A DNA stretch of 64,000 bases from Acidilobaceae archaeon (GTDB taxonomy: Archaea; Thermoproteota; Thermoprotei_A; Sulfolobales; Acidilobaceae). Position numbers and translations under genes: made by a program. Below are positions 14,645 through 27,491 of this stretch, in pieces. The notes below the pieces were generated by a model, which was not told the DNA's origin, searched no databases, and worked only from the letters and a program-made list of their open reading frames with translations. Where the stretch lies: the NCBI GenBank assembly GCA_027037535.1, contig JALVZQ010000004.1, positions 1 to 64,000 of the forward strand. The letters are read 5' to 3'. Within the stretch, counting starts at the first letter, position 1; the number at the start of each line of letters is the position of its first letter.

Positions 14645-16321
14645 CTATCGTTGGATGCCTAGTTTCGGGATTCCTAGTTTGACCATTATGATTATGACTG
14701 CGACGATAGTAGCTATAACTGTACCAGCTATTAGGGATCTATTACTTGTGTTCGTGCTTGTGGTTGTATTCTGGGAGGACTCGTTTGCTATTGTTATGGT
14801 TAGGGTTGCGGCGTCGTGGAGTCCTGCTTCGTCCTCGACTTGTACTATTATTTCGTGTGTTCCTGGTGAGAGTTGGAGTGTGTATGTGTCTGTTGATGGT
14901 GGTAGGTTTATGGTTTGTTGTCCGTCTATTGTCAGCGTTATTTTTGTTATTTTAGAGGTTCCGTTCTCGACTGTCCACTTTATGGATACTGTTTCGTTTT
15001 CCAGGGTGACTCCTTGTTGTGGTGATAGTATTGTTATTTTTGGAGGAGCTATTGGGGATGCCTTGGAGACTAGTGTTATGTATAGTCCTCCTCCATAGAA
15101 GGGGTATGGTGTAAGCATTTTGACCGTGTAGTTCTCCTCGTATATCTTATATGTTCCCTTAGGATACCATATGTCTAGGTCTCTGTCCCATGCCAGCGGC
15201 ATTAGATCCCTCATGGTTATGCCCATTCTCTGCAGGTCTTCGGGGTTGAGGTGGAAGTATATGTTTAAAACACCGGGGCGTGTAGTGCTATTTGATACTA
15301 TTAGGATTGGTCCCATTATGGTAGTGTAGGGTGGAGAGGTACCGGGATTTCTCGTACTGGTATAGACCCATATCTTCGTGGGTGCAGTTAGCTGAGGCGT
15401 GGTTATTGTGATGTTTGGTTCTCCTATCGATACTGTCATGTCTTGTTTGTCTAATACCTTATAAATGGTGGGTGTGCCTGGATCATCGACATAGAAAACG
15501 GAGACGCTTTTGAAGACAACGTTGATAGGGTCAAAGTCAATCGCGTAGGAAAAGTTATGGGTTCCAGGCTCGAGCTCAGAGGTCTCCACGTGGGGAGCCT
15601 CGTACGTCCCGCTAATCCAGCCTCCTCCATAGCCTCCCCCACTATAACTTAAGAGTTCTCGATTGTCCAGGGAAATCGTGACAGTCCAGTTTAATGTCCC
15701 ATTATAGCTACAGGGGGTATATGTAGACGTTTGATCGCCTAAGTATTCAGGACACGGCCAGTAGTTTACCGGGAAGCCTCCGGCGAAATAGAAGCTTTCT
15801 CCCCATACGTAATGGCTCCCGTTCCTCGGAATAGCTATGATAACTGGGGGGTTTGTGCGATCTGGCCGGTGAAGGAGGAAGTATACTGTAGTTTCACTCC
15901 CATGTGTATCCGCTGCTATGACCGTTATATTTGCAGTTTCAGCTACGTGTCCTAGTATCTCACCGTAGATAGAGAAGATGATGTTTCCCTCGAGGCCGAC
16001 CTGGTAGAGTGTAGTGTTTCCATACTCCATCGGTGTTAAGGGTACCATGTATAGCGGGGGGACACCTACGGAGATGTTGGCTAATCCGTCTGGATCATAA
16101 GCCTTTACCACCACGTCTATAATATCTGTACCCCATACGTCCCAGCATGGATAGATTAGCTTGAGAAGAGGCGGATTATTATCATCATTATTTTCTTCTG
16201 CTTCTACTAGTATAATGCCTGTTTTAGACTTATGGGTATTCGAGGTAAAGGTCATAGGTATTAGAATTGATAAAATTATTAATGATAATAGTATGAAGCT
16301 TGCAGGGAATCTCACGATCAT
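14645..16321 (-). CDS. Anchored, N-glycosylated surface protein (paralogue of 25719-27491)
   Basis: A 558-aa protein from ATG 16321, chosen for AAGGAGGTAG just upstream. A signal peptide at residues 1-28 (FPASFILLSLIILSILIP) and a C-terminal membrane anchor (GTVIATIVAVIIIMVKLG) frame an outside part rich in NxT/NxS sequons. Repeating beta-sandwich character is visible: YDPDGLANISVGVP early and an Ig/cadherin-like module KITILSPQQGVTLENETVSI late, before a Thr/Ser/Asn-rich stalk. The region WDRDLDIWYPKGTYKI is shared with the paralogue. Probably a cell-envelope component; enzymatic motifs are not seen. The 314 nt upstream of it (16322-16635) hold only promoters. Confidence 0.82.
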   Translation of the reverse strand: MIVRFPASFILLSLIILSILIPMTFTSNTHKSKTGIILVEAEENNDDNNPPLLKLIYPCWDVWGTDIIDVVVKAYDPDGLANISVGVPPLYMVPLTPMEYGNTTLYQVGLEGNIIFSIYGEILGHVAETANITVIAADTHGSETTVYFLLHRPDRTNPPVIIAIPRNGSHYVWGESFYFAGGFPVNYWPCPEYLGDQTSTYTPCSYNGTLNWTVTISLDNRELLSYSGGGYGGGWISGTYEAPHVETSELEPGTHNFSYAIDFDPINVVFKSVSVFYVDDPGTPTIYKVLDKQDMTVSIGEPNITITTPQLTAPTKIWVYTSTRNPGTSPPYTTIMGPILIVSNSTTRPGVLNIYFHLNPEDLQRMGITMRDLMPLAWDRDLDIWYPKGTYKIYEENYTVKMLTPYPFYGGGLYITLVSKASPIAPPKITILSPQQGVTLENETVSIKWTVENGTSKITKITLTIDGQQTINLPPSTDTYTLQLSPGTHEIIVQVEDEAGLHDAATLTITIANESSQNTTTSTNTSNRSLIAGTVIATIVAVIIIMVKLGIPKLGIQR

Positions 16322-16635
16322 TCTACCTCCTTCATGGATTCTAATCAAATCATTGATCAAAGGTTAAAGGAATCGAGTCTGATCCACGACGACAAACCTG
16401 GCTAATTATATATTTCAAAGACTCGCTCTAGTGATGGACTAGCAGAAACCTGATAATCTCGAGGACCTTATTGGCTTTTGATTTATAACTCCTAGGCTTG
16501 GCCCAAACAAGATATAAGGTAAATGAGCTATTTATTAGTTATTTCTAACTTTGGTATGCAGTCGAGCACTCTATTATTACAACGTTTTAATTTGGAAGAG
16601 TAGCGGTATACAAATAGTAGGGGTCGACGGTATCT

Positions 16636-17190: not shown

Positions 17191-18342
17191 TTATTTTAAT
17201 GAGTTTATTAAGTCGTAGACGTCTTGGGAGAATTTTTCGAAGCTGAAACGTTTAGTGCTTTCTGCTATAATTTTTCTATAGGAACAATCTCTATCTAATG
17301 CTTCATATATTGCATTGGCTGCTTCTTCGTAGTTTTGGAATCCGTATCCATATTTACCGTATTCAACTATATCGCTCCACTGTCCACCGTCTTTATAAAC
17401 TACAGGAATGTTGTAGGCTGCCATTGCTTCTACTATGCTTATTCCGAAGTGTTCGTTTTTTCGTGTGCTTAGATATACGCTTGATTGTTTAAGCAAATTT
17501 ATTTTTTCGGAGTCGGTTATATTTGTGAGGAACTTAACATTATCTAAACCAAGCTTTTTCGTTATTTTTATTAATTTTAGATAATAATTACGACTTTTCC
17601 TCGAGTACACGCCTCCAGCCAAGATAAATCTTACATCCGGCATATGTTTCGCAACATATAATGCTGTTTCCAGTTCTTTCTCCGGAGAGAACCTACCGAT
17701 AGATATAACCTGTCTCTCCTTACCAGAACAGGAATTATTCTTCATAGCCTCTTCAATTAAACTAAGATCTATAGGCGGATAAATAATAATTGATGGCATC
17801 CCAAAATGTTTCTGAATTAAACTCTGTGAATACTTAGATAAGGTAACAATCCTACTATGGCTTATCGATTTTTTATATTCCTTAAACATTTTATCCCTTA
17901 TAAACGAGTATGGTTTAATATATAGATTCCATGGAAATCTACGATATTTTCCTATCTCCCTGTCCAAAAATAGTGTAGTGTAAAATATGTATATAATGTC
18001 TCCCGGAAACATTAACATATCTCCATTAGCGTTTATTATCAAATCGTATTCGTCTCTCAATTTCAGTTTGCTTATTCTCCAATTTTTGATTAACAATTTA
18101 TATGCGAAAAACAACGGTAATCTTAGATCTAATTCTCCAAAAAATTTACTTATAACAAATTCATTATCTGGCATAGTGTAGAATGCAGGCGTTATTTTCT
18201 TTATTAGGTCCCAGTTAATTTTCCTAAACGTATACAAATCAACGGTGTAGTGTTTTTTTAAAGTTTTAGCGAATGCCAGTGCAACTCGTTTTCCTCCGCC
18301 TGGAAAATCTATACTCTCTACTATTAACGCAAGTTTCTTCAC
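17191..18342 (-). CDS. GT4-family glycosyltransferase
   Basis: A 383-aa retaining glycosyltransferase from GTG 18342 (GGTGC upstream). The N-terminal Rossmann half has SIDFPGGGKRVALAFAKTL. The nucleotide-sugar half has ISIGRFSPEKELETALYVA near 230, NVKFLTNITDSEKINLLKQS, and the EX7E-type motif NEHFGISIVEAMAAYNIPVV. This is the GT4 pattern. It is divergent from the epimerase gene at 18424 by about 80 nt, and both belong to the surface-glycan locus. The sequence is AT-rich. Confidence 0.9.
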   Translation of the reverse strand: MKKLALIVESIDFPGGGKRVALAFAKTLKKHYTVDLYTFRKINWDLIKKITPAFYTMPDNEFVISKFFGELDLRLPLFFAYKLLIKNWRISKLKLRDEYDLIINANGDMLMFPGDIIYIFYTTLFLDREIGKYRRFPWNLYIKPYSFIRDKMFKEYKKSISHSRIVTLSKYSQSLIQKHFGMPSIIIYPPIDLSLIEEAMKNNSCSGKERQVISIGRFSPEKELETALYVAKHMPDVRFILAGGVYSRKSRNYYLKLIKITKKLGLDNVKFLTNITDSEKINLLKQSSVYLSTRKNEHFGISIVEAMAAYNIPVVYKDGGQWSDIVEYGKYGYGFQNYEEAANAIYEALDRDCSYRKIIAESTKRFSFEKFSQDVYDLINSLK

Positions 18343-18423
18343 AGCAATAGCACCAGGAGTGTTAAACATAATATGAGAAGGTTTTTATTTTATTTTTACA
18401 GTTTGTTCCAGTTGGTGAATGAT

Positions 18424-19659
18424 TTGAGTAAAAGGGTTCTTATCACGGGTATAAGTGGTTTTGTCGGCCCTCTTCTAGCAAAAAAACTGCTATCCCTGGG
18501 CTATGAGGTATATGGTTTCTATAAAAGACGAGCCGATGGGTATGTACCTATAAGATTACGCCTACTAGGTTTGCATAATTCAATAAAATTAATAGAAGGA
18601 GATTTATCAATTATGTCAAGTGTAATTGCATCGCTACGCGAAAGCGAGCCAGACGTCGTGTTTCATCTTGGAGCACAGAGCTTCGTGCCGCGGTCTTTCA
18701 AAGATCCAATAGAGACATATCATGTTAATACTATGGGCACCATATATTTATTAGAAGGAATCAGATTACTGGATCTCGACTCGAAGTTTATATTTGCTGG
18801 ATCTAGTGAAGAGTACGGATTACAGTTTATTGATAAAAGACACTATCAAGCTATGAAAGAAAAATATGGTATAATATATCCAGAACCCGAAAAACTACCA
18901 GAGTTGCCTATAGACGAAAACAATCCTCTCAGGCCTCTCAGCCCATATGCGACGTCTAAAGTTCATGGAGACTTTTCGACAAGAAACTATTATTATTCGT
19001 ATGGTATCAAAGGAATTGTTTCAAGAGCTTTTAACCATGAAGGACCAGGTCGGGGGCCAGAGTTTGTAACATCGGCGATAGTAATCCAAGTACTGGAGCT
19101 TATCTATGGAAAAAGAGACTATCTTAGAATCGGTAACGTTAATGCTTTCAGAGATTGGAGCCACGTAAACGATGTAATAGATGCATACATATTATTGTCG
19201 GAAAAAGGGAACCCTGGAGACGTATATGTGGTGGGTTCTAGGAGGACTAATAGTGTACTATCATTTATTCTATTAACACTGAAAGAGTTTGGTTATATAA
19301 CGGAGAAACTGGAGACTCTGGATGGTTCAATTACTGTTAAGGATCCCATTGAGGAGTGTGGTGAAAAGTTCTTTGGACTTAACTTCTTCAAAACTAAGGT
19401 AGATTGCATGTTGCTTCAGGGCGAATTAGAGTTTGAATTAAAGCATAAAGGAATAAAATTATATACCAGTAAGGGGACAGTAACAGTTAAGTTTGACCCC
19501 TCCAAGTTCAGGCCTTCAGATGTACCAATACTTCTAAGCAATCCGGAAAAGATTATGAGTTTAGGTTGGAGGATAAATCACAGTCTAAGCGATATTATTA
19601 AAGATCAAGTAGCATATTATAGTGATATGGAGCTTAGGAAAAGTATTAAGCCTAAATAA
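18424..19659 (+). CDS. NAD-dependent nucleotide-sugar epimerase/dehydratase (GDP-mannose 4,6-dehydratase-like)
   Basis: A 411-aa extended SDR from TTG 18424, preceded by GGTGAATGA. The NAD motif GISGFVG is at the N-terminus, VFHLGAQSFV follows, the catalytic pair is in SPYATSKVHGDF (YxxxK), and NHEGPGRGPEFVTSAI is characteristic of the GDP-mannose 4,6-dehydratase group. The C-terminus is about 70 residues longer than usual (ELEFELKHKGIKLYTSKGTV), with no domain I recognise. It probably makes a deoxy or epimerised sugar nucleotide for the neighbouring glycosyltransferase. Confidence 0.88.
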   Translation: MSKRVLITGISGFVGPLLAKKLLSLGYEVYGFYKRRADGYVPIRLRLLGLHNSIKLIEGDLSIMSSVIASLRESEPDVVFHLGAQSFVPRSFKDPIETYHVNTMGTIYLLEGIRLLDLDSKFIFAGSSEEYGLQFIDKRHYQAMKEKYGIIYPEPEKLPELPIDENNPLRPLSPYATSKVHGDFSTRNYYYSYGIKGIVSRAFNHEGPGRGPEFVTSAIVIQVLELIYGKRDYLRIGNVNAFRDWSHVNDVIDAYILLSEKGNPGDVYVVGSRRTNSVLSFILLTLKEFGYITEKLETLDGSITVKDPIEECGEKFFGLNFFKTKVDCMLLQGELEFELKHKGIKLYTSKGTVTVKFDPSKFRPSDVPILLSNPEKIMSLGWRINHSLSDIIKDQVAYYSDMELRKSIKPK

Positions 19660-19690
19660 AGTAAAGTAATATTATTAATTTATTATATAT

Positions 19691-20410
19691 CTAGGGATCT
19701 AAGTAATTAGAGATTTCTCTTAATACATCCGTATTCAAGAGATAATGTAGATCTTGTGGAGTGTCAACATCTACCCAGGGTATACCTGTTACATCTATAA
19801 CTTTGAAAATTCTTTTCTTAGCTATACAGTCTTTCCAATCATTGAACGAAAATGGAATTTTCAAACAGTCTCCGAGCGGCAATACGTGTCTTATATAATG
19901 TACTCCTGTATCCACAAAATTATACTCTAATAACTTCTTTCCTATCCTAATTACGTATTTTTCTGAATCTGCTAATATTAGGGTCGCTTCACCCGGATCA
20001 ACGTATATTGGCCTACTATCCCCTGCAATACAAAACGGATCCCGACATTCTCTTAACAGACGTTTAGGAATCATAGGGGGATATATGTGGTCGCCCACAC
20101 TGACTATGTATTCTCCTGGGCCCAAGACTTCTAGAGCATCTACGAGAGTATACCCGTTTCCAGCCCACCACCTCCAGGTCTCTATAATCTCTATATGGGG
20201 TGCATACGGGCAGGACCTGGAAATTGTAGCTATTTCATCAGCTTGTTGTTTTCTTGTCGCAATATATATCTCTCCTACTCCTGCTAGCGATAGGCTTGAG
20301 ATAGGATAACAAATTAAATTCACTCCTTTAATCTTAGTTTCTAGTTTATTTCTCCCGATAGTCTGAATAAGCCTTTCGCTCTTTCCAGCTGCTAGTACTA
20401 TGGCTTTCAA
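19691..20410 (-). CDS. Inositol-1-phosphate cytidylyltransferase-like nucleotidyltransferase
   Basis: A 239-aa enzyme from TTG 20410, five nt after GGTGA, so that the protein starts MKAIVLAAGKSERL, the nucleotidyltransferase P-loop. GNGYTLVDAL, VSVGDHIYPP, YVDPGEATLIL, NFVDTGVHYI and PWVDVDTPQDL match the motifs of the cytidylyltransferase domain of archaeal bifunctional IPCT-DIPPS enzymes. No membrane phosphatidyltransferase domain is fused. It should make a CDP-activated polyol (CDP-inositol is the best guess). The divergent gene at 20564 is a CDP-alcohol-using phosphotransferase, so the two probably work in sequence. Confidence 0.8.
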   Translation of the reverse strand: MKAIVLAAGKSERLIQTIGRNKLETKIKGVNLICYPISSLSLAGVGEIYIATRKQQADEIATISRSCPYAPHIEIIETWRWWAGNGYTLVDALEVLGPGEYIVSVGDHIYPPMIPKRLLRECRDPFCIAGDSRPIYVDPGEATLILADSEKYVIRIGKKLLEYNFVDTGVHYIRHVLPLGDCLKIPFSFNDWKDCIAKKRIFKVIDVTGIPWVDVDTPQDLHYLLNTDVLREISNYLDP

Positions 20411-20563
20411 TTGTTTCACCAGTGCGATCTTTATAATGAGAGATATCTCTAACTCGTCTGAATTATTAAACCATAGCAATTAATAATTTATCTCCATGCC
20501 TGATTGTCCCAAACAGTATATATTAATCGGGTTCTTGACATTATGTTGCCAATGGTGTAGAGG

Positions 20564-21748
20564 ATGAATAAGGTAACAACTAGATTAATACAATCATATT
20601 TTTTATCCGGAATAAATTATTTCGTTCCCAAGAAGGATAACAAAGTTACATTTATTTCACACATTCCGTTTTCAGATAATCCGAGACCAGTTTTCGAGGA
20701 GCTCTACGAGCAGAATTCCTATGAGATATCATATTTATATCACGGAAGTGTTCCAAGCGACTTGATAAAAAAGTTTAAAGAAATGTATCCGGACGTTGGA
20801 GTCTATCAGCTAACAAGTAGAATAGGTATCAAGCATCTACTGAGGAGTAAGGTAATCGTTCATAATGATATGTTACCTTTAAAACCGGTACACTCTCAAA
20901 AAATTGTGAACTTGTGGCATGGAAATCCTGGAAAGAAAACTGGTTACCTTCACCCTATGAATTTTAAAGACCTATATTTGTATTTGGATATGTGGACTTC
21001 ATACTTTGTCGTTTCAAGTATGGTTTCAGCAGGAATATTTTCGCTTCAGTTTAGGCTAGATCCTAGAAAGTATAAGGTGCTTGGCCAACCAAGACTTAGC
21101 AGAATGCTAGAAAACGAGAATCGCGCCAGAGAGATTCTATCAGAGGTATTAGGTCTGAGTGTTGATAACTATGAATATTTAATACTGTATGCACCTACCT
21201 ATAGATATACTTCATATTATAGATTTCCAGATAAACTTGCTTATGTTATTAATAACCTTATAAAAAATAGAGACTTCCTTGATTTCTTAAGAAAAATGAA
21301 CGTGCTATTGATAGTCCAGCCTCATCCCTCGATAAGACTTGATATAAAAGAAGAATTAGATAATATAAAGTTAATAAACCATCATATGTTTACTATCCGA
21401 GGATATATAATGTATGATTCCATGGCGGCATTTGATATTTTAATAACAGATTATTCCAGTATTTTTGAAGACTATATACTGCTTGATAGACCAGTCATTT
21501 TCTATCTGCCGGATAAAGAAGAGTTAGATAGATACACTGGTTTCCTGTTTAATATAGATTCGTTGGATATAGGAGATAAAGCTCATAGCATTTCAGAGTT
21601 GAAGAAAGCGATTTTAACAGCGATTGATAATCCGAAAAAATATTCGTTTAATAGAATGTATTTGAGGAAAATACTATATGAGTTAGATGAGAGACACTCT
21701 ATAAGTAGAGTTACTGCCTTTATAAGAAGTTTACTGAATAATAATTAA
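20564..21748 (+). CDS. CDP-glycerol glycerophosphotransferase family protein (TagF/TagB-like)
   Basis: A 394-aa protein. VNLWHGNPGKKTGY, LYAPTYR, LIVQPHPS and FDILITDYSSIFEDYILLDR are the hallmark motifs of the family (PF04464) that transfers polyol phosphate from CDP-polyols in teichoic acid synthesis. The histidines of WHG and QPHP are the catalytic ones. No signal or membrane segment is present, consistent with a peripheral enzyme. GGTGTAGAGG precedes the ATG. It is divergent from a CTP:polyol-phosphate cytidylyltransferase-like gene by about 150 nt, suggesting an archaeal polyol-phosphate decoration of surface glycans. Confidence 0.87.
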   Translation: MNKVTTRLIQSYFLSGINYFVPKKDNKVTFISHIPFSDNPRPVFEELYEQNSYEISYLYHGSVPSDLIKKFKEMYPDVGVYQLTSRIGIKHLLRSKVIVHNDMLPLKPVHSQKIVNLWHGNPGKKTGYLHPMNFKDLYLYLDMWTSYFVVSSMVSAGIFSLQFRLDPRKYKVLGQPRLSRMLENENRAREILSEVLGLSVDNYEYLILYAPTYRYTSYYRFPDKLAYVINNLIKNRDFLDFLRKMNVLLIVQPHPSIRLDIKEELDNIKLINHHMFTIRGYIMYDSMAAFDILITDYSSIFEDYILLDRPVIFYLPDKEELDRYTGFLFNIDSLDIGDKAHSISELKKAILTAIDNPKKYSFNRMYLRKILYELDERHSISRVTAFIRSLLNNN

Positions 21749-25718: not shown

Positions 25719-27491
25719 TTATCTTGCTCCCAATAATCCAAGCTTAAATATGGCAAACGACGAGATAACAGCTATAGCTAATACGCTTATGGCTATTAGA
25801 GTTTTTAGGTCACCGTTCCCGTTACTGGGCGTCACCTGTTGTTGTCCCTGGCTTGTGCTGGTTACTGTAATGGTTATTGAAGCAGTATTGTAACGGTTGG
25901 CAACGTCTACTGCCTTGACTATTATCTCGTGTGTTCCTGGCTGTAGGTTTAGACTATAGCTTGTAGCAGTAGGTGGGAGATTTACAGTTTGGGTTCCGTC
26001 TATTATTAAGGTTATTTTGGCGATATCGGCTGATCCTTTTTGTATTTTCCATCTCACGGTTATGTTTTCGTTTTCTATTGTAGCTCCCTGTTGCGGATAT
26101 AGTATTGTTACTGTGGGGGGTGTTGTAGGCGTTGTCTTTGATACTAGTGCCACGTATAGGCCTCCGCCTAGATCCGGATGTACTGTGATGGAGGGGTAAG
26201 TGGTCCATAGTGTTACTGTGTAGCTCTCAGGATCTATTCGGTAGAACCCTTTCGGATACCATACGTTCAGATCCCTGTCCCATACGAGGGGTATCAAGTC
26301 TTTCATGTTTAGTCCGAGTTCTTGAAGCTTTTCGGGATCTACGTGGAAGTGTATTCTGAAGCCGCCTGTCCCCTCAGTATTGTTTACGACAAGGAGTATT
26401 GGGCCTATTAATACATAGCCTGGAGGTGAGCTACCCGGGACCTGTACGTTATTATATACCCATAATTTAGTTTTACCGGTGACATGGGATGCTTCGATCG
26501 TAATATTCGGGTCTCTTAGGTCGAGACTATAGTTGAATCTATCTATTATCTTGTATATTGTGGGTGTTCCTGGATCTTCTACGTAGATTATTGAAGTTCC
26601 TATAAGGGCATCATGTATTACATACGTGCTCCCGGGAACAGGCATTTCAATGCTCATCTCGTATGTTAGATTATGCACGCCAGGTTGTAAATCCATAGTG
26701 TTTATCAACGGGAAACTGCTAGGGCTCCAGGGCCAGTCTCTCCCGGGGCTATAGGTCTGACTGCCGGATTCTCTAATTAGTTGATTGTTGTCGAGTGCTA
26801 GTATTATGGTCCAGTTTAGTATTGTCTGGTTTGCCATGTTGAGGAGATCGCATGGAGTAGGAGTACCTGTAACATTATCGGGTACATTGGATAAATCACA
26901 TGGCCAATAATAGTTGGGTATACCTCCTACGAAGCGGAACTCTTCTCCCTTAATATAATGTGCCCCGTTTCTCGGAAAAATAATTATGACGGAGGGATGC
27001 ATGTGATCTGGGCGAGTGACCGTTAAATTAACAGTCGTTTTAGCGCCAAGAGTGTCCTCAGCTATTAGAGTAAGAGTTATACTGTTTACTTGTTCTCCTG
27101 CTCTCTCACTATATATTTCGAAGAATGTGTTGATCCAATAGCCGCCTGTATAGAGTGTCGTATTGTATATGCCACCGGGATAAATAACTGCAAAAGGATC
27201 CAGGGGCTGTAATGGTACCATGAAGACGCCTGGAATACCGAATGACGCGTTTGCTATGCCATCAGGATCGTAAATCTTCACGAATAGGTCGAACATTTCA
27301 TTTATCTCTTCGTTCCAAGTAGGTGCAATTATTTTTACGAGGGGCGGACTATTATTTGCATCGGCTGGCCCTTCTAGATAGAGGCTTTGGTGGTGTACGG
27401 CATCGTCAACTGACAGTATCGGAGTAGTTAAAACTATGCCCATTAGGGGGAATACAATGATAAACATAATAATACTGGTGACAAGCTTCAT
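25719..27491 (-). CDS. Anchored, N-glycosylated surface protein (paralogue of 14645-16321)
   Basis: A 590-aa protein: signal peptide at 1-25 and C-terminal membrane anchor LIAISVLAIAVISSFAIFKL. In between lie the same modules in the same order as the paralogue at 14645: YDPDGIANASFGIPGVFMVP, YYWPC near the middle, YVEDPGTPTIYKI, WDRDLNVWYPKGFYRI and ILYPQQGATIENENITV. The cores align throughout while loops and stalk differ. Many N-glycosylation sequons. GGTGC lies 8 nt before the ATG. Role unknown; probably a cell-envelope pair. Confidence 0.82.
   Translation of the reverse strand: MKLVTSIIMFIIVFPLMGIVLTTPILSVDDAVHHQSLYLEGPADANNSPPLVKIIAPTWNEEINEMFDLFVKIYDPDGIANASFGIPGVFMVPLQPLDPFAVIYPGGIYNTTLYTGGYWINTFFEIYSERAGEQVNSITLTLIAEDTLGAKTTVNLTVTRPDHMHPSVIIIFPRNGAHYIKGEEFRFVGGIPNYYWPCDLSNVPDNVTGTPTPCDLLNMANQTILNWTIILALDNNQLIRESGSQTYSPGRDWPWSPSSFPLINTMDLQPGVHNLTYEMSIEMPVPGSTYVIHDALIGTSIIYVEDPGTPTIYKIIDRFNYSLDLRDPNITIEASHVTGKTKLWVYNNVQVPGSSPPGYVLIGPILLVVNNTEGTGGFRIHFHVDPEKLQELGLNMKDLIPLVWDRDLNVWYPKGFYRIDPESYTVTLWTTYPSITVHPDLGGGLYVALVSKTTPTTPPTVTILYPQQGATIENENITVRWKIQKGSADIAKITLIIDGTQTVNLPPTATSYSLNLQPGTHEIIVKAVDVANRYNTASITITVTSTSQGQQQVTPSNGNGDLKTLIAISVLAIAVISSFAIFKLGLLGAR

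Follow-up and report, generated by a model that had tools for sequence, protein, structure and literature searches.

The window analyzed here, i.e., the whole stretch of 64,000 nucleotides, belongs to an archaeal genome (G000) of 1.65 Mb in 8 contigs, with a listed completeness of 99.94%. Four genes at 17191-21748 follow one another on alternating strands, and encode a GT4 glycosyltransferase (-), an SDR (+), an IPCT (-) and a TagF-like transferase (+) (Table 1). In line with the initial annotation, which had described an IPCT-like enzyme divergent from a TagF-like homologue, both open reading frames were found at the given positions, 84 bp apart as listed. This gap would widen to about 144 bp with an IPCT start at the GTG codon at 20419, which is in frame and immediately precedes the first conserved motif; this is probably the true start (giving about 242 aa), because it agrees with the inspection of the sequence by eye and the profile match begins at 20413. 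A TATA-like element, TATATATTAAT, was located by eye at 20517-20527, upstream of the TagF-like gene, and is taken as a candidate only.

Table 1. Features of the IPCT/TagF-like locus, in window positions.
Feature	Position	Strand	Evidence
GT4 glycosyltransferase	17191..18369	-	Pfam/NCBIfam matches
GDP-mannose 4,6-dehydratase-like SDR with inserts	18373..19659	+	Pfam/NCBIfam matches
IPCT (CTP:L-myo-inositol-1-phosphate cytidylyltransferase)	19691..20479	-	Pfam/NCBIfam/PDB matches, signature columns, tree
Divergent intergenic region	20480..20563	.	Between IPCT and TagF-like gene
TagF/TarF-type CDP-polyol phosphotransferase (PF04464), 394 aa, H119 and H254 conserved	20564..21748	+	Pfam, alignment, tree, predicted fold

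With regard to the neighboring genes, the SDR is convergent with IPCT (31 bp between them) and is more exactly a GDP-mannose-4,6-dehydratase-like enzyme than the ‘epimerase’ initially named; its role is probably nucleotide-sugar supply. A search of the 59 other relatives gave no match to it at E 1e-30. For the GT4, matches at E 1e-20 were present in 20 of these 59 genomes, with about 27-39% identity (35% for the best full-length match), and in none of the other four genomes of the genus. The GC content of the four genes was 0.33-0.39 versus 0.42 for the window. Together they resemble a glycan cluster peculiar to the species, one that has taken in an IPCT whose ancestry lies in the family. A GH99-like gene had also been counted among the surrounding glycan genes; its product is a real protein of this type (42.9 bits; Pfam cut-off 33), but with a distance of 2.7 kb, a CitMHS ion-transporter gene in between and nothing in support, its membership of the pathway was rejected, and the gene probably lies outside it. 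Within the window, we identified neither an acceptor nor a flippase or oligosaccharyltransferase. On either side of the glycan genes, 14645-16360 and 25719-27491 encode long secreted-looking proteins of 571 and 590 aa that resemble paralogues by eye, the 571-aa one with weak Ig-like domain matches.

Identity and genomic partners of the cytidylyltransferase

The IPCT protein matched Pfam NTP_transf_3 with 38.2 bits (cut-off 27), and its best NCBIfam match was the bifunctional IPCT/DIPPS model NF041135 (84.3 bits; DIPPS, di-inositol-phosphate synthase). The cut-off of that model, 580 bits, is tailored to the fused two-domain enzyme of Thermococcales, and neither this protein nor any of the 60 relatives comes up to it. 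The top three PDB sequences were 4jd0, 2xme and 4mnd, two of which carry an IPCT label, and 4jd0 is described in passages of PMC12275187 as the Thermotoga maritima IPCT. The family profile gave these entries 172, 160 and 158 bits, respectively, followed by RmlA with 64 and LicC (1jyk) with 58. NCBIfam, PDB, profile and tree all placed the sequence nearer to IPCTs than to RmlA, LicC or GlmU. In particular, an IQ-TREE analysis of 44 sequences grouped it in a four-row starred clade (bootstrap 100 / SH-aLRT 99), nested in a starred set of 11 rows, with the IPCTs of G001, from the same genus, and of G006 and G022, from the same family, in all of which the IPCT gene adjoins DIPPS.

Furthermore, 25 columns, chosen without the window's IPCT, show ≥90% conservation in 27 DIPPS-adjacent IPCTs. 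The protein retains 24 of them and departs only at N54, where P is expected. Of the same 25 columns, 13-16 are kept by four COG1213-type enzymes that adjoin TagF at other loci and by the RmlA-like enzyme of G000 itself. The catalytic and signature residues (R, K, D; DH; EAT; DxG) are present, with R36, K45 and D130 among the columns invariant in all 27 sequences. Passages of PMC12275187 likewise call an R, a K and a D critical in the T. maritima enzyme, a parallel that implies no residue-by-residue correspondence. Taken together, tree, signature residues and profile scores led us to reject a hexose-1-phosphate nucleotidyltransferase and to uphold the initial assignment: that the product of 19691-20479 is an IPCT, presumably acting on CTP and inositol-1-phosphate, is well supported by its sequence.

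CDP-inositol is known as an intermediate of the thermolyte di-inositol phosphate (DIP), as described in passages of PMC8397731 and PMC12275187. The window's IPCT shares its family and conserved residues with the DIP-pathway enzymes of A. fulgidus (2xme) and T. maritima (4jd0) and with the IPCT/DIPPS fusion 4mnd, and its clade with the DIP-linked IPCTs of the same archaeal family; it differs from them in that its neighbor is a PF04464 transferase and its genome is devoid of DIPPS. Among 59 IPCT-like loci taken from the phylum, 57 were informative (L174 and L184 end at a contig edge), and a CDP-alcohol phosphotransferase, called at ≥52 bits with the DIPPS profile, was fused, adjacent or within about 1 kb in 55 of these 57. 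This locus count is not exhaustive, since seven or more other matches with scores in that range lie outside it (G331, G222, G173, G312, G379:C157, G234 and G104). In the two loci with no such partner in view, L197 and L204, the surroundings were as follows: at L197:465-2538 (G303), an inositol-1-phosphate-synthase-like gene, recognized by eye, directly precedes the IPCT-type gene, with no DIPPS in 7.5 kb, and at L204:5501-6238 (G124, a single-contig genome) the IPCT-like gene has no CDP-alcohol phosphotransferase within 5 kb.

In G000, the profile search gave a best DIPPS match of 29 bits, compared with 294-316 bits in the sister genomes G001, G006 and G022, and DIPPS was absent whether fused, adjacent or elsewhere. 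The 29-bit match scores as archaetidylserine/archaetidylinositol-phosphate synthase-like, and the sole CDP-OH_P protein of G000 is of the lipid type; similarly weak matches were observed in G004 (31 bits) and G012 (28 bits). An inositol-1-phosphate synthase is present outside the window (G000:C8:170226-170558), as in 56 of the 60 relatives, G000 included. As for other suppliers of CDP-polyols, no IspD/TarI match was found in G000 and no TagD-type cytidylyltransferase was recognized, and of its three CTP_transf_like matches we read two as NMNAT-like and the third as a RibL-like protein that has an additional N-terminal domain. Therefore, IPCT is the only recognized CDP-polyol maker in this genome.

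The TagF-like transferase and its archaeal relatives

The TagF-like protein matched PF04464 with 159.5 bits (cut-off 22.1), and scored 46, 40 and 26 bits against the NCBIfam models of TarF, TarB and TarL, below their cut-offs of 550, 500 and 1000 bits. Its AlphaFold model (mean pLDDT 91) matches TagF (3l7j) at TM 0.77, and also TarL. Every position invariant across 152 homologues is present, including both invariant histidines, H119, which aligns with H444 of TagF, and H254. Two departures were observed: the aspartate of the PRND loop, found in 144 of 152 homologues and thus not family-defining (eight lack it), is S179 here, and the proline found at position 336 in 143 of 151 homologues is an isoleucine. 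Judged from the alignment, these could reflect either a new substrate or lost activity. In comparison with the wall teichoic acid transferases TagF, TarF and TarL (3l7j, 8va1), the protein has in common with them PF04464, the predicted fold, both histidines and the TDYSS motif, whereas it is archaeal, has serine for the PRND aspartate and comes from a genome with no recognized TagD or TarI.

Only one of the 60 relatives has PF04464; across the phylum it was found in 17 of 398 genomes, a count that includes G000. In a scan of 84,980 species genomes, which reads one motif only and could miss nearer kin, the closest among the matches listed was a protein from a Thermococcus MAG with 42% identity, followed by one with 30%; a scan with the single TagF-like protein as query returned no relative. 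In a quick tree, the protein clustered with 11 Thermococcales sequences (SH-aLRT 96).

Within the Thermococcales, PF04464 was detected in 18 of 94 genomes, and 16 of these loci were informative, L246 and L248 being cut at contig edges. An IspD/TarI-type cytidylyltransferase accompanied TagF in 14 of the 16, with a spacing of 1.1 kb in L239 and of at most about 12 bp, or an overlap, in the others; of the remaining two, L250 carries a COG1213-type enzyme and L251 none. L235 and L249 encode fusions of the IspD domain with an SDR, which resemble TarI-TarJ fusions. A Polysacc_synt flippase was present in six of the TagF loci (L235, L239, L241, L242, L245 and L249). TagF-TarI-GT2 modules were found in L092 (48-2803), L239-L245 and L247, and suggest a CDP-ribitol-like pathway in archaeal glycan loci. 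The product of L241:11596-13896, next to one such Thermococcus module, appeared STT3-like by eye and had no Pfam match, and we do not claim it as an oligosaccharyltransferase. The members of these modules (L092, L239-L247) are the nearest TagF kin, with 42-43% identity, and are likewise accompanied by an enzyme that makes a CDP-alcohol; the difference is that the partner is of the IspD/TarI type there and an IPCT in the window.

COG1213-type enzymes were found beside or near TagF in L100, L124, L156, L161 and L250. Those adjoining a PF04464 gene (L124 from Halostella, L156, L161, L250) follow the same plan, with an enzyme of the NTP_transf fold alongside, but they fall into a clade of their own (98/88), and the IPCT signature is missing from the four that were tested. 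L250 (G512), which with 103 bits was a candidate second IPCT-TagF pair, was discarded on these grounds, as were L124, L156, L161 and L100, which belong to the same clade; the contig of L250, with nagA/nagB-like, GntR-like and sugar-ABC genes by reading, looks bacterial. In the haloarchaeon Halostella pelagica (L124:7205-9116), the COG1213-type nucleotidyltransferase gene lies 4 bp upstream of the PF04464 gene. On plasmid pDMC1 of Solidesulfovibrio magneticus (L061:6358-7787), a PF04464 gene overlaps an NTP_transf_3 fragment of 68 aa, and a Tn3-family transposase comes next.

Interpretation of the IPCT-TagF pair

The enzyme families, their conserved residues, the absence of DIPPS and TarI and the different ancestries of the partners are observed at the sequence level, and the two proteins are apparently maker and user of CDP-inositol, with two ancestries. 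We favor, with a probability of roughly 0.55, the explanation that CDP-inositol made by IPCT serves the TagF-like enzyme in the transfer of inositol phosphate to a lipid-linked or surface glycan. The myo-inositol-1-phosphate synthase of G000 would provide inositol-1-phosphate, IPCT would convert it with CTP into CDP-inositol, and the TagF-like enzyme would place inositol phosphate on a hydroxyl of the glycan, releasing CMP; the neighboring GT4 and GDP-mannose-dehydratase-like SDR would help to build that glycan. CDP-inositol is somewhat favored as the donor, a glycan would be the acceptor, and both genes may be co-regulated through their common upstream region. More tentatively, and with rather less confidence, inositol-1-phosphate may be placed on a glycan or glycolipid of the cell surface, possibly in the form of a short poly-inositol-phosphate, in an archaeal teichoic-acid-like system with inositol replacing glycerol or ribitol. 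The supply and use of a CDP-polyol proposed in the initial annotation gains from the Thermococcales kin, which adjoin another CDP-alcohol-making enzyme, and from the lack of DIPPS in G000; its ‘surface glycan’ would follow from the nearby glycan genes and from the flippase genes of the Thermococcales TagF loci.

In evolutionary terms, the IPCT of the DIP pathway would have been retained and DIPPS either lost or not kept at all; its place as CDP-polyol user would have gone to a TagF-like enzyme such as those paired with TarI in Thermococcales. IPCT and TagF derive from different lineages, so the joint transfer of a ready-made pair is not a simple explanation, and either chance or selection for the pair united them. 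Co-occurrence in relatives, whose lack the initial annotation had named as a refutation of its proposal, was not found: PF04464 is confined to one of the 60 genomes, and the IPCTs of the relatives pair with DIPPS. We read this as an old enzyme recruited to a new partner in one species; with a single instance, co-occurrence does not separate recruitment from coincidence. Several observations speak against the favored explanation, namely that the IPCT-TagF pair was seen in G000 only, that the genes are divergent and do not form an operon, with alternating strands throughout the four genes, that the polyol of the closest TagF kin, whose partner is of the TarI type, appears to be linear and not a ring, that neither acceptor, flippase nor oligosaccharyltransferase came to light in the window, and that S179, I336 and the substrate variety of COG1213 enzymes have to be accommodated.

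Coincidental neighborhood is a somewhat doubtful alternative. IPCT would then be a leftover of DIP synthesis, or serve it via an unrecognized synthase, and the TagF-like enzyme would take as its donor CDP-glycerol, CDP-ribitol or a sugar nucleotide produced elsewhere. The patchiness of the DIP genes in the genus (G001 has IPCT and DIPPS, G002-G004 neither), the divergent orientation, the TarI-type partners of the close TagF kin and the RibL-like protein of unproven role are consistent with it. However, IPCT has not decayed, as judged from its 24 conserved columns, G000 has neither DIPPS at profile level nor TarI, and a new gene would land beside one given gene of about 1,700 around once in a thousand times, by our estimate. 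A replacement of DIPPS by the TagF-like enzyme, which would join CDP-inositol to inositol-1-phosphate or inositol so that DIP is still made as a compatible solute, would fit an IPCT from the DIP clade, an inositol-1-phosphate synthase in G000 and DIPPS as the sole missing step; it is nevertheless quite improbable, given that the solved PF04464 relatives (TagF, TarL, Cps3D) are wall or capsule polymer enzymes, that glycan genes adjoin and that the close Thermococcales kin sit with GT2 and flippase genes. Finally, passages of PMC12275187 describe COG1213 enzymes differing in substrate (phosphocholine, phosphoglutamine, phosphoglycerate), and such enzymes occur near TagF, but a shift of the window's IPCT to another phospho-alcohol (glycerate, choline-like or glutamine-like), transferred by the TagF-like enzyme, is very improbable in view of their separate clade and of the signature that it keeps and the four tested lack.

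In the open-licence literature, where absence means little, we found no report of a PF04464 enzyme using CDP-inositol or of an archaeal glycan bearing inositol phosphate, and no relevant match for archaeal teichoic acid/CDP-glycerol, Thermococcus ribitol/teichoic or Thermococcus N-glycan. If a PF04464 transferase does use CDP-inositol, this would be a second role for that intermediate, inositol phosphate would join archaeal glycan chemistry, and an archaeon would have rewired a compatible-solute enzyme into its surface chemistry. The TarI-TagF modules of the Thermococcales would provide a wider archaeal setting for teichoic-type enzymes, in a group with genetic tools.
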